Assembly (NCBI GenBank): GCA_022925895.1
Contig: JAKSYS010000263.1
Span: 1 to 64,000, forward strand
DNA from: Fragilaria crotonensis
Lineage: Eukaryota; Bacillariophyta; Fragilariophyceae; Fragilariales; Fragilariaceae
Direction of reading: 5' to 3'
Length of the DNA stretch: 64,000 nucleotides
Part shown: one piece after another, positions 18,043-60,332 of the stretch
Position numbering within the stretch: position 1 is the first letter of the stretch
Layout: every line of letters starts with the position of its first letter
Position numbers and translations under genes: made by a program
The notes under the pieces: model-generated
Seen by the model: only the letters and a program-made list of their open reading frames with translations
What the model was told of the DNA's origin: nothing
Databases searched by the model: none

Positions 18043-19224
18043 TCATTGAAAATAGCACTCCTCAGTGACTCCGTGCCAAATGCATCCGAAATCGCCGAGC
18101 ATTTCCTCCTCCATCTTCTCTTCAGTCCTCTCAAAGCAATGTGTTGCGAAATCTTTCCACACCGTGACGTCGTCGTCTTGAGTAGGAGGTTCGTTCCACG
18201 CCTTGTCCTTTAGAACAGAAACTCCTCCATCGCGCAGCATCTTGAGTGCCAACTCTGGGGATGGCCTGCCGAAGAAGATTTGATGTTCAATGGGCACCCA
18301 CGCAAAACTGAAGTATTCTTCACCAATTATGATCAGCTGGCCCTCCATCCATTGCGAGTTTTGAAAGTTTTCTTCAGCCACACGACCGAGGCCGTGGTAG
18401 CGAGGAAGCTGGGTTGTTCCCCACTTCTTGGATGCCTTCTCAGTTAGCATAATGGGACTGAGGGGTTCAGGCTTTGTACCTCGATTAATACGATTTAATG
18501 CCAGAGGATTCAAATCAGCTTGAATGTGATTTCACCCCGAGGAACATTCTGGTCCCCAGTGACCTTGAAGGCAATAAGAGTGTCACCTGCGTAGGTAACA
18601 TTAATCATTTCGTACCCATGGCTGCCATACCTTACGAGATCGTCAGCGAATTGAATTGAAAAACAAATATGCCAACAGGCTAAGCAGTTCGACTTACTTT
18701 CCAACCCATAGACCTTCCAAGTTGAAATGAGGAAGGCAACTACGTGCATTTAGGGCTCTACCTTTGTGAAAGATCTCATCCTCTGTGCGCCCATCACGTG
18801 CGGCTTTGTGCATAGCCTCGAGTTCTGTTCTGTACACAAGCTCTGGGTCACGTCTCTCGACTTTGCGAAGACTTCTTCGGATTTCTCTTTCAGTTTCTTC
18901 AGCATTGCTGTTAATCGCCTCGACTAACTGATTACTCAAATCATTCATGGTTCCTCTCAGATCCCACAGATCATTACCGTACTTTGCAAACTGACCTTCA
19001 TTCTCCTTCTCCCGGTCTAAGCGCTCTCGTCGAGCTTGTGACTCAAGCAGCGGTTCCAAATACCCAAATTCTGCAAGGCGACGACGGCCACTTCCGTCGT
19101 GCGCTGCACCGTCAGCGGCCTCGAACAAACGTGATGACAGCATTGGACTGCTGCTTGGCAAGACCACGAACGCCGTGGCCGTGAGGATGCATGAATAGAT
19201 GAAGAGGACGGCAGCCAGTGCCAT
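18043..19224 (-). CDS. EXECUTER-like plastid protein, copy 1
   Basis: The protein starts with a signal peptide and a plastid AF motif (TATAFVVLP, residue 18), so it should enter the plastid. Next comes a charged, coiled-coil/UVR-like region, then a conserved beta domain beginning FNLEGLWVGKYGSHGYEMIN and continuing through TFKAD and GQLIIIGEEYFSFAWVP. This resembles the C-terminal domain shared by plant EXECUTER proteins, which act in singlet-oxygen signalling, and FBXO31. A 67-nt intron (18697-18631) interrupts the Lys codon of GLWVGK. A single missing A near 18518 is needed to join TFK to ADLNPLALN. It is paralogous to the gene at 21841-22960, with the same intron position, and the two face away from each other. 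The role in diatoms is inferred. Confidence 0.6.
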
Positions 19225-21840: not shown

Positions 21841-22960
21841 ATGACTCGCTTGTTCCACATCAACGCAGCTATTCTAGCCATATCATCAGCCTCTGCTTTC
21901 ACATGCTTGACGCCACCTTCATCATCACACTCTGTATTCACCGGCCGCTCTCCTCAACCTCTTCACATGTCACTCTCCCATACTGGTGACTGGGAACTCC
22001 CTGATGAAACACCAGACGGAGGCGATGACACAAGCCTCATGGAGTCACCACCAGTGATTATCAGCTTTGTCCAAGGTGATGACTTGCAACGGTTGCGAAT
22101 CCAAGTCTTGGAACTGCGAGCAGAATTGTACGATGCCAAAGCCGCTAATGACGCTGCTCGTGTTCTTGAGCTCCAGCACTCCATCATCAAGGCACAACAA
22201 CATGACGCCGAATTCGTATACTCTGTATCTCTCGAACGTATGGAAGCAGCGGAAGCTCGCGGTCGATGGGTGGAAGCTGAGAAGTTTCGGTTGGACGCTA
22301 TCGAGGCACGTCAATCGTTGCCACAGTTCAATCTGGAAGGCTTGTGGGTTGGAAAGTAAGTAAAGTGCGATACATCAGTATAATGGACTCGAATTCATTG
22401 TTTCGCTAACTTTTGTGATGTCATCTTCAAGATACGGCGACCATGGATACGAAATGATTAATGTCACGTACGTGGGCGACACTCTTCTTGCGCATAAAGT
22501 AACTGGTGAGCAAAACGTGCCCCAGGGTCAGCTATCCTTTACCGTGGACTTGAGTCCGAAATTGGAGAAGGAACAATTTTTGGAACCTGTCGTACTTGGC
22601 GAGGCCGCAGCACGACAATGGGGTGCTAAGTTTCTCTCGCGATTCAGTGGCAAGGGTCAAGTGGCAGGAGAAGGGTACACTAACGCCCAGTTTGTGGAAG
22701 GACAGCTGATTCTTGTTAATGATTTCTTCTCGTTCGCTTGGGTACCCATTGGCCATCAAGTGTTTTTTGGGAGACCAAGTGCTGAGTTGACACTGAAGCT
22801 CTTGAGGGAGTCAGAAGAAGGCGCTCGGGGCGTAGACAAGGCACGTGCTCACCTTGCTCGATGCATGGAGGAGACAAAGAGTCTTGAAGAAGATGACGTT
22901 GAAGACATTCCCGCTATCGCCCAACATGACTACTACGGCGTCCAGGGATACTTCGATTGA
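21841..22960 (+). CDS. EXECUTER-like plastid protein, copy 2
   Basis: The intact model has two exons (21841-22355 and 22432-22960) separated by a 76-nt GT-AG intron, giving 347 residues. The leader carries a textbook diatom plastid motif (SSASAF, residues 15-20). Residues 75-165 are helical and charged, with a UVR-like pattern (GRWVEAEKFRLDAIEARQ). The C-terminal half holds the beta domain FNLEGLWVGKYGDHGYEMIN, HKVTGEQNVPQGQLSF, VEGQLILVNDFFSFAWVP and VFFGRPSAELTL. Plant EXECUTER and FBXO31 share this domain. Identity with copy 1 at 18043-19224 is high in the domain but low in the leader and tail. An intact frame here supports the view that the break in copy 1 is an assembly error. Confidence 0.65.
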
Positions 22961-23578
22961 AGTATATTATACCTGTCTTATGCATTGTGCAACATTCATG
23001 CCACCGCCTGACAAAATGGAGGACATGCCTACTTCGCCTTTCAGGGATTCTTCGTGTACACTAAGTTTTATCAGAAGACGTATGCCATGTAATGCACCGC
23101 AGGCATGGCGACGCTTTGCCAATAACGGAGGGAAGCCATACGTTTCCCCTTGTAATGCTAAATTTATTACGTTCACCCATTATGCGTTGAGATCGACACC
23201 TGTACCTGCGATGGCCTTACGGAGGTGTGTTCGATGTTTACCTATTCTATGAAACTTCGTGCCGCAAGGTCAGCTTTCTGCACGTGTGACACTGCATGTC
23301 TTGAGTGCTTCAACCCTGCAGAATCATAGCGCACACGTCAAACTTTCATCTTTGTGAGTCAAGCTGTCACGCCAGAAGGACGATACCACTGGTATGACAT
23401 TCGGTAGTTTTTCCTGTATGCAGGACCAGGGACATGCGGAAATTCTTCTCAGGACGGAAATAATAACCGTCTTTTGCCGTTGACTGTTTTAAAACCAATG
23501 ATGGATAACGGCAAAATATTTTTGAGCATATCGAAAATGTCAGACTCGCGCTCGTGAGCTTGGCTTGCGCGTTTCCGA
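22961..23578. other. 3' spacer, nothing recognised
   Basis: This region runs from the stop of the EXECUTER-like copy 2 to the first palindromic array. Short open frames (22967-23252) overlap on both strands without protein-like features. Confidence 0.4.
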
Positions 23579-23850
23579 AACCTTCTTATGAACGAAGAAT
23601 GTTGAAAGGACCTTCTTCGCCCGAAGAAGCCTGCTTCCTAATCTTCTTCGTGCGAAGAAACCTTCTTCGTTGGATGTCGTTTTCTACTTACGTCATCGAA
23701 GAAGGTGTTCACATAAAGTCTGGTCTGGTACATGTTGCACACTGAACCAACGTAGAATATTTTTGTGTGTGTCACTTCAAAACCTTCTTCGCATGTCTTC
23801 TTCGTCCGAAGTAGGTTTGCAAATCGTCCTCTTCGCTGGAAGCGTGTTGA
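23579..23850. repeat. Cluster of CTTCTTCG...CGAAGAAG palindromes
   Basis: The word CTTCTTCG and its complement CGAAGAAG occur about ten times in 270 bp, often paired as small hairpins (CTTCTTCGCCCGAAGAAG, CTTCTTCGTGCGAAGAA, CTTCTTCGTCCGAAG). Spacing is irregular. No coding frame is supported. Confidence 0.7.
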
Positions 23851-23907
23851 AGATTTTTGTCTCTCAAATCGTTGTTGGGGTGTGACTGGCGTGCTCGATG
23901 GGAATCT

Positions 23908-24856
23908 GGAGGTTCCGGAATTTCGGCTCTTTTATGTGTCTCATACCTTTCACGCAGATTTTCTACCAGAAATATGTTCGACGAACACCTAAATAATTCC
24001 ACGTTTCAAAATGATAGAATGTCTTCTGTTGAACCACAATAATAAAAACCGTGCTTAAGTTTTGGAACTTTGTTAACATCGTTTGTTATGACAAGTACGA
24101 CATCGATTCAATGTCTTGGATGAACCCTAGTACTATGTAGGGATATTTGGAAAAGACGTTGGCTCTTGAGCCATTGGCTCTTGAGCCATTGGCTCTTGAG
24201 CCAGAGGCTCTTGAGTCATTGGCTCTTGAGTCATTGGCTCTTGAGTCATTGGCTCTTGAGTCATTGGCTCTTGAGCCACTGGCTCAAGAGCCAGTTTACT
24301 TCGTCGAACTAGTCGAGGAACGTGTTTTCCTTAAATGAGAACTCGCCAAACGGGGAACGAAAGAAATGACAGGTCATCTATGGTTGCTATATAGCATTTT
24401 CTGTAAGCATCGGCGAAACAATATTCAAGTATGAAGAGAATACATTGAGCGAATGACAAGCTCTATGACACACAAAAAAGTGTGTTCTTGAGTTTGACTT
24501 CGTCGGGGGCTGTTGTTCAGCCGTTGGCTTTTGAGCCAGCGGCTCTTGAGACAATGGCTCTTGAGCCAGCGGCTCTTGAGACAATGGCTGCCGACACTTC
24601 AAATGTCTTATATCCTTAAGTAGGATTTCATAAGACGTCGATTCCATTGTCGCAAAGTCTAAGCTCAAGTGGGTTCTTTACTTAAAGCTCAAAATTTGTC
24701 ACGTCATGCAATTAATGTACCTAATGATCCGGACATTTGAAGGGGTGATGGAGCGTGGAATATTTGTCCGGCGTGATGAACGAAGTTGTAGAATTAGTAC
24801 TGTATACGTAGCCACTATACACTTAAAGGTAAAAGAGCCGAAATTCCGGAACCTCC
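23908..24856. repeat. 27-bp inverted repeat pair bracketing a palindrome array
   Basis: A 27-bp word beginning GGAGGTTCCGGAATTTCGGC at 23908-23934 recurs exactly in reverse complement at 24830-24856. The 949-bp interval includes the GGCTCTTGAGCC arrays. The pair could be the ends of a small foldback transposon; I did not identify a target duplication. Confidence 0.6.
24158..24300. repeat. 15-bp tandem array of the near-palindrome GGCTCTTGAGCC
   Basis: About nine units of TTGGCTCTTGAGCCA, some with GTCA in place of GCCA, stand head to tail. The last unit is inverted (GGCTCAAGAGCC). A second, shorter block of the same word lies at 24524-24590. The open frames through it just translate the repeat. 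Confidence 0.85.
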
Positions 24857-25129
24857 TGAGTACGCAAGATTACCTTCAAGACGTTATGAAATAACGTTGT
24901 AGTAGCCGTTCAATGTATCCAATAACCCCCGAATTGACTGCCGACTAAAGGTTAAGAAGGAATGCCGCATGTCCCAGCGTACTTTGCTTTCAGGAAGGTC
25001 CGGCCCATGCACGTTCCAGCCGTACCGTTAGGGGCAGTTGTATTTGCGCGTCAGCCTTGCTCCGATTTGCATGATGCGAGAATTTTAGCAATCGCAATGA
25101 TCCATCCGAGCCGGCAAGGTTGCTGCATC

Positions 25130-25420
25130 GTAAGCAAATTTTTCATGACAGTAAGCAAAATCAGTAAGCAAATTATGCCGGTAAGCAAATTTTGTAAGCA
25201 AATTTTTTCTGTAAGCAAATTTGATTTTCGTAAGCAAATTCTTCTTTGCTGTAAGTAAATTTTATTTAGGTGTTTGAAAATTGGTATGTTTTTACGTAGA
25301 AAAGACAGTCCCCGTAAGCAAATTTAATCTCCCAGTAAGCAAATTTTGTAAGCAAATTTCTGCTTACAATAGATTTGCTTATGGTAAGCAAATTCCGTAA
25401 GCAATTTCATTCCGTAAGTA
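25130..25420. repeat. Array of GTAAGCAAATT units
   Basis: Roughly thirteen copies of GTAAGCAAATT lie mostly in one orientation, with irregular A/T-rich spacers of 3-40 bp. One inverted copy is near 25363 (AAATTTCTGCTTAC) and a stray copy lies at 26062. Confidence 0.8.
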
Positions 25421-25574
25421 ATTTTTTTTTCCCAGGAAGGTCCGGCCAAAGCACGTTCTAGCCGTTAAGTTCCGGTAACGAAGTCATTTCCGCGCACGCC
25501 GACTTCAAAATACATGTGCTGCGATATTTGTAGCTTTTGCAGTCAATGCAAACGAGCCGGCAAGGTTTTCTGAT

Positions 25575-25925
25575 GCGAAGTGGAAATCCACTTCAGTGAA
25601 GTGGAATTCCACTTCGGGTAAGTGGAATTTCACTTCGGGGAAGTGGAATTCCACTTAGGGGGAGTGGAATTCCACTTAGGGGAAGTGGAATTCCACTTAC
25701 CCGAAGTGAAATGCAATGTTCCCAAAATGAATTCATACTGAATTGTGTAGGCGTCACGTGTGTCCATCGCATTGTGAGGAAGTGGAATTCCACTTCGGGT
25801 AAGTGAAAATCCACTTCGGTGAAGTGGAATTCCACTTCGGGTAAGTGGAATTTCACTTTGGAGAAGTGGAATTTCACTTAGGGGAAGTGGAATTTCACTT
25901 AGGTGAAGTGGAATTTCACTGACTA
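25575..25925. repeat. Array of the 16-bp palindrome AAGTGGAATTCCACTT
   Basis: About sixteen units of AAGTGGAA(T/A)TCCACTT, or the TTTCACTT variant, are separated by 4-6 bp G/T-rich linkers such as CGGGT or AGGGG. An 85-bp unrelated segment interrupts them at about 25695-25780. Every unit can fold on itself. Confidence 0.85.
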
Positions 25926-26327
25926 GGATCCACATGATAATCGCGCCGGCCTTGCTTTTTATCAGTTGAAAATGACATAACGTGGAAGCGAGACTCTTAC
26001 TATGAGGTGTCACGTGTTCTCGTTTTTTCCTCGATTCCGACGGTGCGGCCGGACCTTCCAGTAAGCAAATTTTCTTACAGACGTCAGCCGTGTCACCACC
26101 ACGCCGGCACATCCAATTTTGCGCCAGCCAGACATCGATCGGAACTTGTTTCCCTCCCGGCGGGCGCGCATACTTCCTTTATTCAGGACTTCGCCCGTAT
26201 TGCCGGACCTTCCTGGGTAGACTCTACTACTGTACCCTAGTAGAGAGTAGAAGTCTCGACTCTACTAGGAAGAGCAAAAACAGACTGGAGTACCTTTGGT
26301 ACTTGTACTCCTAGCTAGTACCTGGTA

Positions 26328-26921
26328 CCACATAAAAAGTGCCTGGAGCCATTACTTTCACCCCGTTGTGGACTAAAGATATCTTGCTCAAAAATGCTTT
26401 GATTTCAATTCTGTTTTTACAAATGCTGTGTGATGTTCTTGGCTATCCAGAACATTAATCATTCTTTTTCCAGAGCAAGAATTGATGAAGTTGTCGCTGA
26501 ACTTGTGACGCTCATTTTAGCAGTTATCAGCTCCAGGCACTTCATTTAAATGTATCCATACCTTAAGACATTTTTTAGGCATCGGTTGAGATTTTTCACC
26601 CCATTCAACTATGATTTTTTTGTACTTGTTTTCTACTGCTACAGAGTTTTTCCCTATTGGTGGTACGCGATCAATGGGGTGAAAATCCGAGGGGGTGAAA
26701 AATTGCGAGCCCTCAACTTCCAGTGATGTTTACAACACCAGTTTCTAATCGGTTTGTTCACCACTCCAGAAGACTTCGTTGTATTGCATATCAGAGATCA
26801 AAACGGCCATAGCAAGTGCCATTGATTTCTTGAAATTGAGTGACTTATTTGTAGGAGGAGTCGAAAAAACCCCGTTTAACGGCTCCAGCGGTCGAAACGG
26901 CTCCAGGCACTTTTTATGTGG
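26328..26921. mobile_element. MITE with 23-bp perfect terminal inverted repeats and TA target duplication
   Basis: The left end is CCACATAAAAAGTGCCTGGA and the right end is its exact complement, with 23 bp perfect. Both are flanked by TA (26326-26327 and 26922-26923). The 594-bp interior is A/T-rich, lacks a coding frame and repeats GGGGTGAAAA words. TA duplication and length suit a Tc1/mariner- or Harbinger-derived MITE. Confidence 0.8.
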
Positions 26922-27352
26922 TAGTAGACAGCAACACTACGCACTACGTGAGACATAGTAGTACTGGAAGTACTGGAGTAGGAAATACAGTACCCCACAG
27001 CATTGCAGGTCATCTTAGTACTTGTACCAGGTACTGTACTGTACATACATTTTCTAGATGCGATTCCTGATTCCCGATCAGAACGTCAATCCCGGTCAAA
27101 GTCCAACTCTCAAACGCAACCATTCCATTTTTTTCGTCGCGGTGTTGTACTGTACAGGCAACAAACTACAGTACCTTGTACCACGCCGTCGTGCAGTGTT
27201 GCAATTGTTGTCAAGTCACGTGACAGCATCAATGCAAGCCACAAGACAACCCGTCCGACATACCGCCTTCTCACCAACCGCATCTCTACACTCTACACTC
27301 ACAATCCCCGAGTCAGCCACTGGCCAAGGCTTCATATCGACCTGGAATAGCG
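26922..27352. other. Upstream region of PRP17 with GTAC palindromes
   Basis: GTAC words cluster at 26950-27050 and 27145-27185 (GTACTGGAAGTACTGGAGTA, GGTACTGTACTGTAC). The remainder is likely promoter and 5' leader of PRP17. No other gene is seen. Confidence 0.5.
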
Positions 27353-29167
27353 ATGGATTTGATCGAGGGATCCGATGATGAGGAACAGACTACAGAGCCG
27401 ATTGTGCCTGTGGTTCGCAGACCGGACCGAAGATTTCTCAACCCGGCTCCGCCAACGTCCATGTTGACAGAAGCCTCCATGGCACTAACAATTCACAAGG
27501 GTAGCGAGCAGAAGAAAACTGCTGCTCCAGGTGGAGCTCTCGTGTTAATGAACAACCCGACCAAGGCGGTGCTGTACCAACCTATACAAGGACCGCAGAT
27601 GGCGGATCCGAAGCGACCTTCAACAAAAACACCGGGGGTGGTGGAAGCCAATATCGCCTTTGACGAAAGCACTTTTAATGAACAGAGAACTGCCTTCCAA
27701 CGTACTGGCAGAGCCTTGGCTCCCTCCAGCACAGGAGAAGTCGTAACACGAACTACTTTGGGTTACACGGAAACCCGTCTTGAGCATTTTGCCAACGAGG
27801 CGATGAATCGTCGCAAACGACCACGATTCGAAGATAAGAGCGAACCAGAACCACTGGTACTTGGAGATGACGATGACACACAATTCGGCATCTGGGGTCC
27901 TCCCACACGAGAGGAGCTTTGGCATGGAGAGAACGCCCTCTCGGACCTGGCACGCGGCGGTGTGGAGGGTTTAGCGCCGGAGCAACTTGCGGAACGCGAA
28001 TATCTGCAAGAACAGAAGCGACAAAAGGGTCTCGAAGAAGAAAACCAAGCCAAGGAACCCGATATCGATCGCTTGGTGGAGCGCAAAATGGCTCACTTGC
28101 TTCCGCCAAGACTCCAAGGGGACGGACCGATCGAACCAACCACCAAGTTCCATGGAAAGGAAGAATTCGATTACAAGGGAAACTCTTGGATGGCACCTCC
28201 TGCTGGCATGGGTTCTGTAAGTGGAGAAGCTGGCGTGGAAGATCACAAATGTTTCGTTCCCAAGAAATGCGTCCATCGATTTACTGGCCACAACAAGGGT
28301 GTTCATCGGATTCGACTTTTCCCCAGAACTGGTCACCTGCTGCTTTCGGGTGGTTTGGATGGGAAATGCAAGGTTTGGTCCATTGAGCATAAGCAGGTGA
28401 TGCGTACCTACTCGGGCCACGCAGCTGGGGTACGGGACGTACAATTCAATCACGACGGGTCCAAATTTGTCTCTGCTTCGTTCGATAGGTACCTCCGCTT
28501 GTGGAAGACCGAGACAGGTGACGTCTTGCAAACCTTTACCAATCGTAAGGTGCCATATGTTGTCAAGTTCTACCCACACGATGACAATCTCTTCGTTGTG
28601 GGGTGCAGTGACAATAAGATTGTGACTTACGATGCCACGACTGGTGAAATTACTCAGGAATACAACCACCACCTTGCGCCAGTGAACGCTATCCTTTTTG
28701 TGGAAGATCATGGAACTAAAATGATAACCAGCAGCGATGACAAGAAAGTGTTGGTATGGGAGTGGGACATTGGCGTTCCTATCAAGTACATATCAGATCC
28801 CACTATGCATTCGATGCCTACGATGACCTTGCACCCGTCCCACCAATTCTTCGTTGGCCAGTCGCTTGACAATCAAATTGTAGTCTTTCAAGCCCAGAAT
28901 CGCTTCGCCATACAGCGAAAACGACGCTTTGCGGGGCATCAAGTGTCTGGATATGCCTGTGAGATGGCCTTTAGTCCCGACGGCCAATTTCTAGCAAGTG
29001 GCGACGGGAATGGCAAGTTATGCTTTTGGGAATGGAAAAGATCGAAATTGCTTCAAAAGTACAAGGCTCACGACAAGGGACCAACTATTGGGTGTGTATG
29101 GCATCCACTGGAACCGTCGGTGGTGTTTACCTGCGGTTGGGATGGCGTAATCAAAATGTGGCAATGA
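27353..29167 (+). CDS. CDC40: Pre-mRNA splicing factor PRP17/CDC40 (WD40)
   Basis: It acts in the second step of splicing as part of the spliceosome. The single intact exon encodes 604 residues (human 579). The N-terminal half is charged and carries the family block TKFHGKEEFDYKGNSW (near residue 263). From about residue 300 there are seven WD40 repeats; conserved family strings include FTGHNKGVHRIRLFP, ASFDRYLRLWKTETGD, FTNRKVPYVVKFYP, MHSMPTMTLHP, SGDGNGKLCFWEWK and TCGWDGVIKMW. The ATG at 27353 follows an in-frame leader and gives the MDLIEGSDDEE start. Nothing looks unusual. Confidence 0.95.
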   Translation: MDLIEGSDDEEQTTEPIVPVVRRPDRRFLNPAPPTSMLTEASMALTIHKGSEQKKTAAPGGALVLMNNPTKAVLYQPIQGPQMADPKRPSTKTPGVVEANIAFDESTFNEQRTAFQRTGRALAPSSTGEVVTRTTLGYTETRLEHFANEAMNRRKRPRFEDKSEPEPLVLGDDDDTQFGIWGPPTREELWHGENALSDLARGGVEGLAPEQLAEREYLQEQKRQKGLEEENQAKEPDIDRLVERKMAHLLPPRLQGDGPIEPTTKFHGKEEFDYKGNSWMAPPAGMGSVSGEAGVEDHKCFVPKKCVHRFTGHNKGVHRIRLFPRTGHLLLSGGLDGKCKVWSIEHKQVMRTYSGHAAGVRDVQFNHDGSKFVSASFDRYLRLWKTETGDVLQTFTNRKVPYVVKFYPHDDNLFVVGCSDNKIVTYDATTGEITQEYNHHLAPVNAILFVEDHGTKMITSSDDKKVLVWEWDIGVPIKYISDPTMHSMPTMTLHPSHQFFVGQSLDNQIVVFQAQNRFAIQRKRRFAGHQVSGYACEMAFSPDGQFLASGDGNGKLCFWEWKRSKLLQKYKAHDKGPTIGCVWHPLEPSVVFTCGWDGVIKMWQ

Positions 29168-37167: not shown

Positions 37168-37541
37168 CGTGTTTCCCACAATGCGGCCCTGACCACCACA
37201 ATTACTTGGAGATCTTCAGAAGTCGATGAAAAAAATTGAGGCGTATCTTTTTAGTGTCTTGCTTTTCTTCAAACGAGAGCGCAACTCGCGACACACATGA
37301 TGGTATGCATATATTTTATCTCACGAAGCAGAGGCGTGAAAATGGTACCAGGTATGGCTGGTTTCATCAAGAAACTACATATAGTACAAGTTGTGTAGGA
37401 ATGGTACAAAATCCATTGACGTCATGGAGTGAAATGCGATCCGGCATCCTCGCACCTCCGAACAACACGAGTGGCACCACACAAATAAACGATCTTGAGA
37501 CCATGAGATTGCAATGACGATTTGATCGTCTTCCAGTCCTC

Positions 37542-37615
37542 ATCAGCCGGACCTTTTTGAACTCAGAGCTCATTTATCAAGTTGGTTAGGCCCCTGAACT
37601 GAAAGGTCCGGCTGA
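37542..37615. repeat. Short foldback with ATCAGCCGGACCTTT arms
   Basis: Arms of 23-24 bp (left 37542-37565, right 37593-37615) pair with few mismatches around a 27-bp loop. The core AAGGTCCGGC matches the word at the ends of the palindrome-array block at 24990-26217. Confidence 0.6.
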
Positions 37616-37920
37616 TCGGCCATAATGAACCCACTGCTGATGTCCTTCCGATGATGGCTGTAAACGTTCGCCTCTCGCTCTACAGAATGCATTTCCGGAC
37701 GCCAATTGGCGTGGATACGTCCCTAAGTGATTCATTTCCAAAGCCAACAAGTGTGCATCCCATACCCAGCAGATTGCATGCAACAACGTTGCTGAATTGC
37801 CTCAGCAGGGTCTTCAGAAAGTTGCTCGACCATAAACACTACCTGACTATGACTATCAGCTATCAGGTGCGGAGTTATACACAGTCTCGCACTTGAAACA
37901 TAAGGAAAGGCTGCTACCGG

Positions 37921-38922
37921 CTATTTGGAGTTCTCATCATCCCAGCTTGAAGCATCTGAATAAATGAACGCTATTAGTGAACCAAAAGTGCTCTGCTTCA
38001 CTACTATTTCACTCGTTGTGTTTAATATTACTATGCGATTGTCATTTGTGGTCCTCTCCTGCCTCAATAGGTTGTATGCAGTGGCATAACTTTTGACCAC
38101 AAAGATTCCACCCACAAAAGGAGTTTGATAGAAAGCAGACGTTGATGAAGTGGGCATATACTCATGGTCGGCTTGAAATCATCCACGACATTGCTTTGCT
38201 GGAAATTCATTCGTCTAGTGTCCATCCTCGGCAACGTCAGAGTACTTGGAGCTTTCAAAGGCTGGAACCTTCATCATCTGATTTTGAACGTTCCTCTCGC
38301 ACTCCAGAATGTAGGGTTCGCCGGCAACATGGTTTGACTCAGCTGGTACGTAGCAGGGCTTGCAATGACAGACAGCAATACACAACCCGGCAATAGGAGT
38401 CAATGACCGTTGCGGAGCTTGCGGTATTGAGCCAAGTATGGCATCTCATGAAAGGCATACTTCATGATAGTCATCATAGTCATGAGGTCAGAGATTAGTC
38501 AGGAACGTTGCTCAGTTTGATGTTGCATATGACATCAGGTGTAAGTCGCTTCACTTTGCTGCTGCACCATCAAGATTAGGGCCGTGCTGGCTGCAAAAGG
38601 CCTTCAAAACAAGGAAGTCAGTGTTAAGAACTTCAGCCATGGCAATCATCGCCTTCAAAAAGTCAGTTCCAATGATGGTGTTCAAGTCGCTGAAGGTCTT
38701 CCGAAGGGTACGAGTCGAAATGCCGATGCCGCAGCATGTGACCGACAACGCTGCACCTTCCCTAGTGCCAGTAGAGAAAAAAGGCATCGATTTCGATAAA
38801 AAAGGAACACATTTGAAGGCGTTAGTCAAAGATGCAAAAAGCAGGGAAGTTCTCACAACCGAGACAGTCCTCCGCAAGTGTTCAAGGCAGGCAAGCGAGA
38901 GGGTACGGCGCATATCATTCAT
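37921..38922 (-). pseudogene. Possible broken hypothetical gene, minus strand
   Basis: Several minus-strand frames look protein-like and follow one another. They are 38922-38551 (123 codons), then a stretch at 38390-38215 (HVAGEPYILECERNVQNQMM) and 38157-37921 (TSAFYQTPFVGGIFVVKSYA). They lie in different frames without recognisable splice sites. No family is recognised. It may be a decayed gene, a retroelement remnant, or a gene damaged by assembly errors. Confidence 0.25.
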
Positions 38923-39363
38923 GAGAGCACAAACAGGGCAGATTAAAGCACAAAACTCACCCTTCCGCTAATCGAACGCCGTGTCAAGGCATTTACAACA
39001 AATGAAAGCTGTCGACTTGTGATACAGGCTTTGTTTACGGCTTTGTGCCTACCGCCTACCATGACGGATGGATTGTAACAATTATGACGAACGACGAGGT
39101 TGATTCCAAAACTTTTGCGCCAGATAAATTTTTAGAGTACTGAGTGTACGTGTTGCTACGATATTCAGCCAAAGGATGAAACCAGCCATACCAGGTGATA
39201 GTATGTGTACATACTCGTACATGCGTATGTATGATACGCGTGAAATGCGTACTACTGGCCACTGGCTACTTGTGCTGGCGAAATTAAGCATCCGCAATCC
39301 GCAATCCGCACTTCCTCGTACTTAAAAAAGCACACTCTGTCGACAAGAAATTCGATTCAACCG

Positions 39364-53836: not shown

Positions 53837-55453
53837 CTACTCAACATCGTCGAGCGAGTTCGATGCATCCTCTTTCGCAAGCTCCCAATCAAGAAACTTA
53901 ATGATCTCTCGGAGCTCCTTCATCTCATCGACCCGGCTGATCGGCATGGAGGCGCTTGGACTGTTCTGCATCTCGCCAAACCTATGCGTGTCAATTGGTA
54001 AACATGGCATGGAGGAACGGCGCATTGGCGATGGCTCAAGCATGCAGGAGATCGTTGAGCCATAATATTGATCCCGTTCCTCTTCAGTAGCAATTATGGC
54101 AGAGAATGGTTCACTGGGCTTAACCATGCCAGAGACCATTGAGACACGAGACTTATCACTTTCGTCTTCGGTCGGGTTTGCATCACGACATAACATGGCC
54201 ATAAACGCCGTAACATTTCCACCGTCCATCCAGGCGTCATTGCCTCCTGGCCCTCCGTACGCGACGGGTTCTATAAAACCAGCAGGATTAGAGCAATCAG
54301 CTCCGAAGGACGACAATAGAGGCACAGAGGACGACGATTGCCCGGGATGGCAGGTTGTCACCTCCGGCAAGGAGAAACGACCTCCCATAATATCTAGAAG
54401 GCTCATTGGAAGTGAAGTGCCCTTCTCTGACACCTCTTCTGACTCCTCTGATCCTTCAACGGGTGGAAACGAGGCGAAGGCAGGCACGGACACGCGGCGA
54501 GGTCCTGCGTGTAGCGGAGGAACCGAGGACAACGATGGTTCATGGTGGCGGGTTGTCGCTTCTCCTTGACGCATCATGCTCCCTTGAAGGCTCATTGCCA
54601 GCGAAGCGCTCTTGTGTAAGTCCTCCGATCCTTGAACGAGAGGAGATGAGGAGAAAGTATGCATGGACATACGGCGAGGTCCTGCGCCCAAGGGCGGAAC
54701 AGAGGACAATGATAGCCCGTGATGGCAGGAAGTAATTTCTCCTTGACGCCCTTCGCTACCATGAAGGCTCATTGGCAACGAAGCGCTCTTTCCTGACTGC
54801 GCTGATCCTTCAACGAGAGATGAGGTAAAAGTAGGCATAGACATGCGGCGAGGTTCTGCAAATAGAGCAGCATTTTGAAGCTGGGCCTGCATCATCAGTC
54901 GTGCTTCAACCTCATGTCGTTGAACTGAGAGGCTACCACTCAAATTTGGGTCCGGCTTGTTCTGAGCGACCAAGGAAGGAAGTGGTGTCAGGACGTAATC
55001 CCCTGAGGCCATGATGTGCTGTTGTTGATGGGCAATCAACTTCTTCAAATCGAGTTTGCTTTGAGCTTTCCACTGTGAAAGAGCCATTCTGTAGCGCCTT
55101 TTCTCATGGACAGCCTCCTCGTCGAATTGCTTTCGGTCGTTGACATCGAGAGCGTTCCATTTGGCCGAGATTTCCTTGGCCATATCGGAAAACCCGAGCT
55201 TGCGTTTTGCCTTAACAAGCTTCGCGCGTTCCGACCTGAAGAAAGATTGTACGCTGTAAGGGAGCGCTTCGGTTTGCGGTTTACTCTCGCGCATGGACAT
55301 GCTACGTTGAAGCTCGGCCACATATTCGAAATATCTCTTGATCATGCGATTCACTCCTATAGTGTCGTTTGAGGACGAATCTAGCTGCAGAACCCTGTCC
55401 ATAGTCTGTATTAGAGGAGCGATTGTTCGTCCTCGTTCCAGCCTTGGTGGCAC
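53837..55453 (-). CDS. HMG-box protein with three internal repeats
   Basis: The single intact exon encodes 538 residues. An HMG-box lies at residues 65-130 (PYSVQSFFRSERAKLVKAKR, FSDMAKEISAKWNALD, EKRRYRMALSQWK), so DNA binding is expected. From about residue 205 to 385 a unit of about 58 residues repeats three times, each starting PRR(M/V)S and including (S/A)LPMSL or LAMSL and SLSSVPPL. The RRxS cores look like basophilic-kinase sites, and a fourth lies at MRRSSM near residue 480. A helical C-terminus (VDEMKELREIIKFLDWELAK) could be a coiled coil. The start at 55453 or at the Met 17 codons later is open. It is probably a transcription or chromatin regulator. Confidence 0.78.
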   Translation of the reverse strand: MPPRLERGRTIAPLIQTMDRVLQLDSSSNDTIGVNRMIKRYFEYVAELQRSMSMRESKPQTEALPYSVQSFFRSERAKLVKAKRKLGFSDMAKEISAKWNALDVNDRKQFDEEAVHEKRRYRMALSQWKAQSKLDLKKLIAHQQQHIMASGDYVLTPLPSLVAQNKPDPNLSGSLSVQRHEVEARLMMQAQLQNAALFAEPRRMSMPTFTSSLVEGSAQSGKSASLPMSLHGSEGRQGEITSCHHGLSLSSVPPLGAGPRRMSMHTFSSSPLVQGSEDLHKSASLAMSLQGSMMRQGEATTRHHEPSLSSVPPLHAGPRRVSVPAFASFPPVEGSEESEEVSEKGTSLPMSLLDIMGGRFSLPEVTTCHPGQSSSSVPLLSSFGADCSNPAGFIEPVAYGGPGGNDAWMDGGNVTAFMAMLCRDANPTEDESDKSRVSMVSGMVKPSEPFSAIIATEEERDQYYGSTISCMLEPSPMRRSSMPCLPIDTHRFGEMQNSPSASMPISRVDEMKELREIIKFLDWELAKEDASNSLDDVE

Positions 55454-58643: not shown

Positions 58644-59641
58644 CAGGCCACTTTAATAGTGGCATTTTCTGGGAAAAACCACTATTAACCACTATTAACC
58701 TTTCTGGTGGCGCCACTATTAACGATTTTTTTTACGTAGAATCCATACTACGGCGCATTTGCACGCCTTAACTTTAGTAGTACAGTACTACCGTATTTCT
58801 CGGAATTTTGTACCCCACGGATTCCTGTACCCTTCACCGAAAATCAATAAACATTCTTGACCCACTCGACTCAAAAAAGTGAGCCCTTTTAGAACCTTTT
58901 GAAGAGCAAATTCTGGCATATCGCTGAAACGTCAGGTCATTTGAATTCTTCGTGACGAAACCTATATTTACATGTATAACTTCAATGATCAAGTGATGTG
59001 TTTAAATCTTTGTTTTCAAGTTTTTCACTGGGTTGCGCATTGGTTTTTTTTCCTCGGTGACCTGTACCCTTCGGACATTTTTGATGTACATTTGGGGGGT
59101 ACAAAATACCGAGAAATACGGTAGTACATAGTACACACTTCATTGATCCTGACTCCGAACAAGAGCAGAAGACACTGTTCAATGAAGGCCATGCCATTGC
59201 ATATGGCCTCACAGTATGTGAGCAAGTGGATGCACAGACAGCACAGTCAGTAGTTTCAGTTTCACATCAATTCTGTTTACATTTCAGTCATGATGTGAAG
59301 ACTTTGAGTGGAGGCTTCTTAGCCACTGCATTGTTTCCAGGGACATCATTTGTTGAGAGTGACTTCTCTGAAGTAAAGTGAAGAATGATTGCTGAACTGG
59401 TCTTAAAAACTTTCTTTTGGTGGATGGCATTCTGCATTCTACTACATTCCAAGCAGTTTACAATGCTTCAATCCAGCGTATTCCTACTGTATTCTACTAC
59501 TTGTACCTGTGGCTCCTACTGTAGTAGTGTTTCTGGTGTACACTGGCACGTGACCACTATTAGCCACTATTAACTTTCTGACGGCGCCACTATTAGCTTA
59601 ATAGTGGTAATAGTGGCGTCCGCCACTATTAAAGTGGCCTG
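58644..59641. mobile_element. hAT-like element with CAGG ends and possible 8-bp target duplication
   Basis: The ends are CAGGCCACTTTAATAGTGGC and its complement. GTGATACG flanks both sides (58636-58643, 59642-59649), the 8-bp duplication expected of hAT; however, the site lies in a GATACGT tandem, which weakens this evidence. CCACTATTA words are repeated near both ends (58679-58723 and 59554-59596), like hAT subterminal binding sites. At 59145-59380 an open frame without ATG ends GGFLATALFPGTSFVESDFS, possibly a transposase remnant. A second MITE is nested inside. Confidence 0.65.
58791..59121. mobile_element. TA-flanked MITE nested in the hAT-like element
   Basis: The ends are CCGTATTTCTCGG(A)ATTTTGTACCCC and its complement, flanked by TA (58789-58790, 59122-59123). 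It is 331 bp, non-coding, and the complete relative of the truncated copy at 19722. Confidence 0.8.
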
Positions 59642-59674
59642 GTGATACGTGATACGTGATACGTGATACGTGAT

Positions 59675-59865
59675 ACTTGCTACTAGTACTTGCTACTAGT
59701 ACTTGCTACTAGTACTTGCTACTAGTACTTGCTACTAGTACTTGCTACTAGTACTTGCTACTAGTACTTGCTTCTAGTACTTGCTACTAGTACTTGCTAC
59801 TAGTACTTGCTACTAGTACTTGCTACTAGTACTTGCTACTAGTACTTGCTACTAGTACTTGCTAC
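59675..59865 (+). repeat. Minisatellite, 13-bp unit ACTTGCTACTAGT
   Basis: About fourteen nearly perfect units stand head to tail, framed by GATACGT and TACTTGAT simple repeats. Each unit contains the near-palindrome ACTAGT. Confidence 0.9.
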
Positions 59866-60332
59866 TTGCTACTTGCTACTTGTACTTGTTACTTGATACT
59901 TGATACTTGATACTTGATACAGCCCACACCATACACAAATACACTACTAGGAGTACACCATACGCAGACCATAGACCATCGTATGCATAAAATGTGTATT
60001 CATTATTACCATATATACTTGGACCTTGTACCAGGTACTACAAAATTGTAATGGAGTTGCAGTACGAAATACCTGTACGAGTACCTGCTCCCCCTACATT
60101 AGAAGACTCCGGAGTAAAATCGGAGTGTTTTTTATCACACACCCTGTCTTTCTGTATTTTTACGCAGTCTGAAGTTGAAGGTCGAATTGCTGGCAGAACA
60201 CGAACAACCACATACTTGACACTTGACATGCATTTGTCGGTATTGCTGTAGTCCCTGATAAAGAGTCTTATCTTAGGAGAAGTACTCCAATATTTTGCAT
60301 TCAATATTGCTTCACAAGAACAAAACGGTGCC
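59866..60332. other. Upstream region of FTO
   Basis: It contains degenerate TACTTGATAC repeats, GTAC words at 60010-60085 and the likely promoter and leader of FTO. The minus-strand frame at 60038-60391 overlaps the FTO start and is discounted. Confidence 0.5.

Follow-up and report, generated by a model that had tools for sequence, protein, structure and literature searches.

The window, that is, the whole 64,000-nucleotide stretch of DNA that was analysed, has a GC content of 47% and encodes eS7, an aldo/keto reductase and a WD40 protein; several leader peptides look plastid-directed, which makes a diatom or another photosynthetic stramenopile the probable eukaryotic host, and ARAGORN found no tRNAs. 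The repeat block described here is flanked on one side by a likely coding frame ending at 22960 and on the other by the WD40 gene, which lies directly downstream and has its first ATG at 27353. Left of the block, the segments 18534-18726 and 22327-22528 are inverted paralogues of 77-86% identity; the coding frames in which they sit are probably related and run on opposite strands. A miniature inverted-repeat transposable element (MITE) at 26326-26923 has 25-bp perfect inverted ends (TACCACATAAAAAGTGCCTGGAGCC) with TA at its start and end, and its commonest 8-mer occurs only four times.

Two nested pairs of inverted-repeat transposons

The block consists of two nested pairs of apparently non-autonomous transposons with terminal inverted repeats (TIRs), in which no transposase was found; this anatomy is well supported. 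The four arrays of short words listed in the preliminary description are present where it had placed them, and to these can be added the TIRs, the target duplications, the nesting and the division of every array word into two blocks with a spacer between them.

The outer element of the first pair, E1 (23427-24977), has a CAG target site duplication (TSD) at 23427-23429 and 24975-24977, the element proper running from 23430 to 24974. Its TIR, GGACATGCGG, is exact over 10 bp and matches at 17 of the first 20 bp; minus E2 and one TSD copy, E1 measures about 595 bp (592 in the script). The E1 arrays (23593-23835) comprise two blocks on either side of 23705-23783 and hold, outside E2, 11 copies of CTTCTTCG / CGAAGAAG with at most one mismatch, frequently arranged as CTTCTTCG-NN-CGAAGAAG. 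Self-comparison also places an inverted counterpart of the CTTCTTCG block at 24965-24975.

Inside E1 lies E2 (23906-24858; element 23909-24855), with a CTG TSD at 23906-23908 and 24856-24858. The E2 TIR, GAGGTTCCGGAATTTCGGCTCTTTTA, is perfect over 26 bp, and its first mismatch falls precisely on the W of CWG, as would be expected if a palindromic target had been duplicated. The TIR also contains the half-word GGCTCTT; judged by eye, such a half-word in the TIR is clear for E2 only, weaker in E1 and not seen in A or B. The E2 word, GGCTCTTGAGCC, occurs in 14 copies with at most three mismatches, of which the two 15-bp arrays account for 13 and the right TIR for one. The left array (24159-24293) has nine 15-bp units, the last of them inverted, and the right array (24525-24589) has four copies; a self-comparison shows the arrays bracketed by a 27-bp perfect inverted match. 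The longest open frame in E1 and E2 is 97 aa.

In the second pair, the outer element A (24991-26215; element 24994-26212; TIR GAAGGTCCGGC) is flanked by CAG at 24991-24993 and CTG at 26213-26215, which are non-identical and do not form a true duplication. The inner element B (25433-26061; element 25436-26058; TIR GAAGGTCCGGCC) is located in A's array and has a CAG TSD at 25433-25435 and 26059-26061. The A arrays (25130-25425, plus strand) contain 15 copies of GTAAGCAAATT in two partly duplicated blocks on either side of 25262-25313, and the array resumes directly after B at 26062-26078 on the plus strand, where, together with the last base of the B duplication, it reads GTAAGCAAATTTTCTTAC, a nearly full 18-bp palindrome. 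In all, A holds outside B 16 irregularly spaced copies with at most two mismatches. The B word, AAGTGGAATTCCACTT, is repeated with a 21-bp period in six copies in the left array (25577-25698) and seven in the right (25778-25921), i.e., 13 copies with at most four mismatches. The longest open frame in A and B, 182 aa, is largely array-derived.

The 5' ends of A (24994-25129) and B (25436-25576), both on the plus strand, are the first and second copies of the 140-bp module that the preliminary description had noticed. This module is real: the two ends align at 136 of 141 bp (z 8.1 against 60 shuffles, first 12 bp excluded) and are then followed by different words. Its start is terminal sequence of which inverted copies occur at 26049-26061 and 26203-26215, and the window contains two full copies of the module. 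No comparable similarity was seen between the 3' segments of the two elements, apart from the TIR and a common CCGGC motif. The idea of a chassis carrying an exchangeable word thus describes A and B well, with their same TIR, homologous 5' segment and different words; however, the chassis is a TIR transposon rather than a lone 140-bp module, and the other two arrays belong to elements that are organised in a similar way and have different TIRs.

Two further elements were found in the window. E0 (1741-2921) has a CTG TSD, a 21-bp exact TIR (CAAGTTGCGGTCATTCTCTTT) and a long inverted subterminal region with inverted copies of the word ACTTTAGA (nine copies). E8 (37349-39194) has a CAG TSD and a 17-bp TIR (GTATGGCTGGTTTCATC) and is devoid of word arrays; arrays are therefore not obligatory, and target type and arrays are separable. 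The two longest frames of E8 gave sub-threshold Pfam matches only. Its interior contains a 75-bp hairpin (37542-37616) with 15-bp perfect arms (ATCAGCCGGACCTTT), which holds the GGTCCGG core of the A and B ends, turned outward.

Target duplications, array words and array placement

To assess the target duplications, the window was scanned without reference to CWG for inverted pairs with an exact match of at least 11 bp, 300-3000 bp apart. A 3-bp direct duplication whose outer bases are complementary flanks nine of the 74 pairs obtained. CWG accounts for six of these duplications, which belong to five independent elements, E1, E2, B, E0 and E8 (position 26061 being paired twice); the other three are AAT, ATT and TAA. 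In 60 Markov-1 sequences such duplications had a mean of 0.72 (maximum 3) and CWG duplications a mean of 0.13 (maximum 2), although these sequences held fewer inverted pairs than the array-bearing window (mean 38.5 vs 74).

The TIR starts also share a pattern, with G9 and G10 in all five families and G1, A3, T6 and C8 in four of the five; the simulated p for at least five such columns is about 1.5e-4, on an alignment made after the fact. The pattern CWGN5TNCGG occurs 29 times in comparison with 11.8 +- 3.2 expected and a maximum of 20 in 100 shuffles; it was derived from 10 of the 29 sites and is to that extent circular, 19 occurrences being left without them.

Joining the flanks of B with a single CAG gives an 18-bp exact match to the A array at 25330-25347, and thus provides a paralogous empty site for B. 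Part of this match is the repeated word itself, which limits the independent support to the few bases before the word. When the test was applied to B, E2, E1, E0 and E8, the match was informative for B only; E2 and E1 gave nothing, E8 a trivial self-match, and E0 only 12-bp GTAC-rich matches, which equal the 95th percentile of random sites.

The self-complementarity that had been ascribed to the array words is also present: the word of B is perfectly palindromic and that of E2 is so apart from its central TT, whereas the word of A, one half of an 18-bp palindrome, is mostly arranged as direct repeats (14 of 16 copies on the plus strand). Across the whole window, the E1, E2, A and B words were counted 110, 53, 35 and 20 times, in comparison with means of 57, 41, 18 and 2 in 10 Markov sequences; at these mismatch levels the words are not rare as such, and it is their clustering that constitutes the feature. 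The commonest 8-mer has 7 copies in E1, 12 in E2, 13 in A and 17 in B; the range of 7-17 copies also covers E0, while E8 lies outside it. For comparison, the maximum in Markov-1 sequences, 300 for each of six lengths (592-1846 bp), was 5 copies. An 8-mer count of at least 6 was reached in 18 of 210 steps of 900 bp across the window, which correspond to the block, E0, the arrays at 58.8-60 kb and, in addition, three steps with a count of 6 at 41.1-41.7 kb.

The outer edges of the arrays lie at similar distances from the left and right ends of their elements: 250/266 bp in E2, 141/137 in B, 136/134 in A, 163/186 in E1 and 341/336 in E0. Under uniform placement, the single p values are 0.033, 0.018, 0.011, 0.069 and 0.009, respectively; the E1 offsets were computed without E2, and with one TSD copy kept the right offset is 189 instead of 186 and p is slightly weaker. 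The combined p is 2.9e-4 for the four block elements; it becomes 2.9e-5 when E0 is added and 2.5e-3 when only E2, B and E1 are considered, all of these values being approximate, as the array borders and the inclusion of E0 were picked after inspection. Among 66 pairs of end segments compared beyond their first 12 bp, three exceeded z 3, namely the 5' ends of A and B, the two ends of E2 (3.9, weak) and the two ends of E0 (17.9, strong). Inverted duplication of the ends therefore does not explain the symmetry in A, B and E1, and may contribute to it in E0 and E2.

Within the arrays, words and spacers were compared in A, B and E2. The two duplicated pieces of the A array differ at 4 of 66 word sites and at 13 of 20 spacer sites (p 1.4e-7). 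The mean minor-base fractions of word and spacer are 0.042 and 0.283 in B (12 of 13 copies) and 0.045 and 0.242 in E2 (11 of 13 copies), on segments chosen by similarity, a choice that favours the words. The comparison suggests that the words are under constraint in these three elements.

Relation to known transposons and a possible role for the arrays

NuwaI, of the PHIS (PIF/Harbinger-ISL2EU-Spy) superfamily, is defined by CWG duplications; in the available text of PMC4482050 its autonomous members mostly encode a transposase and a Myb/SANT protein, its TIRs are 12-61 bp long and usually start with GGG, and it is reported from 16 animal genomes only. The 5'-CWG-3' duplications of 3 bp in E0, E1, E2, B and E8 (not exact in A) are comparable, as are the TIRs, which are exact over 10-26 bp and begin with G in four of the five families. 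In contrast, the TIRs here start with GGA, GAG, GAA, GTA or CAA instead of GGG, a criterion that the source words as usual rather than absolute, and the present host is a eukaryote with plastid-targeted-looking proteins. The word 'subterminal' does not occur in the main text of PMC4482050, and the accessible parts of PMC11304231 and PMC12595863 add nothing on CWG. We therefore describe the block elements as apparently NuwaI-like by target and do not claim membership. A MITE is defined by TIRs, a target duplication, a lack of coding capacity and the presence of several copies; in the block elements, TIRs and duplications are present (imperfect in A), the longest open frames are those of 97 and 182 aa given above, and A and B are two related copies. 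Harbinger-like elements are mentioned in Thalassiosira pseudonana in the part of PMC2806351 at hand.

Subterminal motifs read by transposon-coded proteins have been described in other systems. In zebrafish Harbinger3_DR, according to the available text of PMC9710019, a Myb-like protein recognises a 9-bp subterminal motif. The likeness lies in a short subterminal motif read by a transposon-coded protein, binding here being deduced from sequence; the difference lies in a 9-bp motif as opposed to densely arrayed words of 8-16 bp, palindromic or half-palindromic, that are specific to each family. In maize, the Spm/En protein TNPA binds to repeats in the subterminal regions, and in soybean such repeats differ between CACTA families of the one species (PMC2613891, available text). 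The block elements resemble CACTA transposons (En/Spm, Tgm), as far as that text describes them, in having short motifs near both ends, a 3-bp duplication and a family-specific motif within one species, and differ in that the words are mostly palindromic and form two discrete blocks starting about 135-340 bp from the ends. Furthermore, the TIRs do not start with CACTA. Foldback elements such as Drosophila FB and Tetris carry tandem arrays in their arms and are similar in combining tandem arrays with inverted repeats, whereas the elements described here have short TIR arms and internal, palindromic arrays. A paper on DINE-1 Helentrons (PMC4067079) also mentions subterminal repeats and palindromes, by word count. 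No title or abstract start among the literature matches listed reported arrays of subterminal palindromes, whether in diatoms, in protists or in Harbinger MITEs. Searches of IMG/VR with five DNA patterns found no relative; the single match (contig L001), a 21-bp identity in a phage gene that we take to be a terminase, with the rest of the element dissimilar, was discarded as chance. A GTDB scan with the E2 TIR gave no match.

On balance, we consider it rather probable that the elements are PHIS/NuwaI-like relatives of MITEs whose family-specific subterminal arrays serve as docking sites for a transposon-coded protein. Protein binding is also the best fit among the three roles that had been suggested for the arrays. 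We hypothesize that each word could be the binding site of a DNA-binding accessory protein supplied by the autonomous family that moves the element, either Myb-like as in Harbinger or TNPA-like as in CACTA. Such a protein would load both arrays as dimers, which would account for the palindromic words, draw the ends together and recruit a DDE transposase to the short TIRs; the transposase would then cut the element and insert it at CWG. The period of B (21 bp) spans about two turns of the helix and that of E2 (15 bp) about 1.5, and stacking on the same face is thus not general. Families would diverge when a word changes together with its protein while the TIR and adjoining end stay alike, as in A and B. 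A Pfam scan of 10 proteins from the window, with the two longest frames of E8 among them, revealed neither a transposase nor a Myb gene.

A more far-reaching and tentative possibility, which we would not put above a minority chance, is that these elements represent a CWG transposon lineage with modular address arrays, in which a conserved end chassis carries an exchangeable block of palindromic words at a set offset, each word being read by a matching transposon-coded protein. If so, the swapping of words, as between A and B, would create families that do not compete for one transposase. What keeps a non-autonomous transposon paired with a single transposase, and lets it avoid competition, is a standing question; related elements of one genome with similar ends and different conserved arrays could offer an array-to-protein code that is readable from sequence and testable in vitro. 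They may also extend CWG-target transposons beyond animals.

Other readings of the arrays have to be weighed against docking. With an appreciable but clearly smaller probability, the CWG transposons are real and their arrays passive, i.e., internal tandem repeats that grew at hairpins through replication slippage and unequal exchange and take no part in transposition. In B and E2 the arrays have a regular period (21 and 15 bp) and their spacers are related, and hence they have grown by tandem duplication; folding of a single strand is much stronger for B than for 20 shuffled sequences (z -15), and E8 lacks an array altogether. However, the words are kept while the spacers drift, even in the irregularly spaced A, and in all four elements of the block the array borders lie at comparable distances from the two ends (single p 0.011 to 0.069), two features for which slippage alone, another of the roles proposed earlier, accounts poorly. 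In addition, words are found in five of the six elements (A included despite its CAG/CTG flanks) and are absent from random sequence of equal lengths. It is also conceivable, although improbable, that the conserved words bind a host transcription, silencing or replication factor and thereby influence regulation or chromatin state instead of docking a transposase, as palindromic, regularly spaced sites are typical of dimeric DNA-binding proteins and 21 bp is about two turns; against this, a different word in each family would call for four different host factors, and the similar distance to both ends points to an end function.

The strong foldback of B would suit a source of structural or small RNA as well, with foldback arrays transcribed and processed. 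As a principal explanation this seems very unlikely, since Rfam gave no match at gathering score and since the CWG duplications, like the nesting, are indicative of DNA transposition; a secondary role of this kind is possible. Least probable of all is that the block is a chance assortment of inverted repeats with CAG or CTG close by: any single 3-bp flank is weak evidence, the flanks of A mismatch and three of the nine duplications are not CWG, but five independent CWG elements stand against 0.13 expected, the TIRs of 26 and 21 bp are perfect, and B has a paralogous empty site. This reading is already disfavoured.

Other repeats in the window

An element with a hAT-like structure is located at 58644-59641, with a 20-bp perfect TIR (CAGGCCACTTTAATAGTGGC), 8-bp flanks (GTGATACG) and copies of CCACTATTAA at both tips. 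Its flanks lie in a GTGATAC array, and the length of the duplication can therefore be 1 or 8 modulo 7. A and this element both read CAG...CTG, for which reason hAT membership was considered for E1, E2, A and B; it was rejected, as their flanks have no 8-bp duplication. The 58644-59641 element contains, at 58785-59127, a mariner-like element terminated by TA, and the GTGATAC array at 59642-59920 leads into 18.8 copies of TACTTGCTACTAG.

Self-complementary words of the GTAC type are over-represented across the whole window in comparison with 20 Markov sequences: GTAC occurs 375 times vs 160, AGTACT 53 vs 10 and TACTAGTA 19 vs 0.2. The segment 55857-56635 has a 33-bp perfect TIR (GGAGTACTCCCTCCGTCCGAATATAGTAGTCCC), which resembles the ends of plant Stowaway elements. 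At 54442-54859, a 177-bp repeat is present in 2.4 copies within an ORF with an HMG box.
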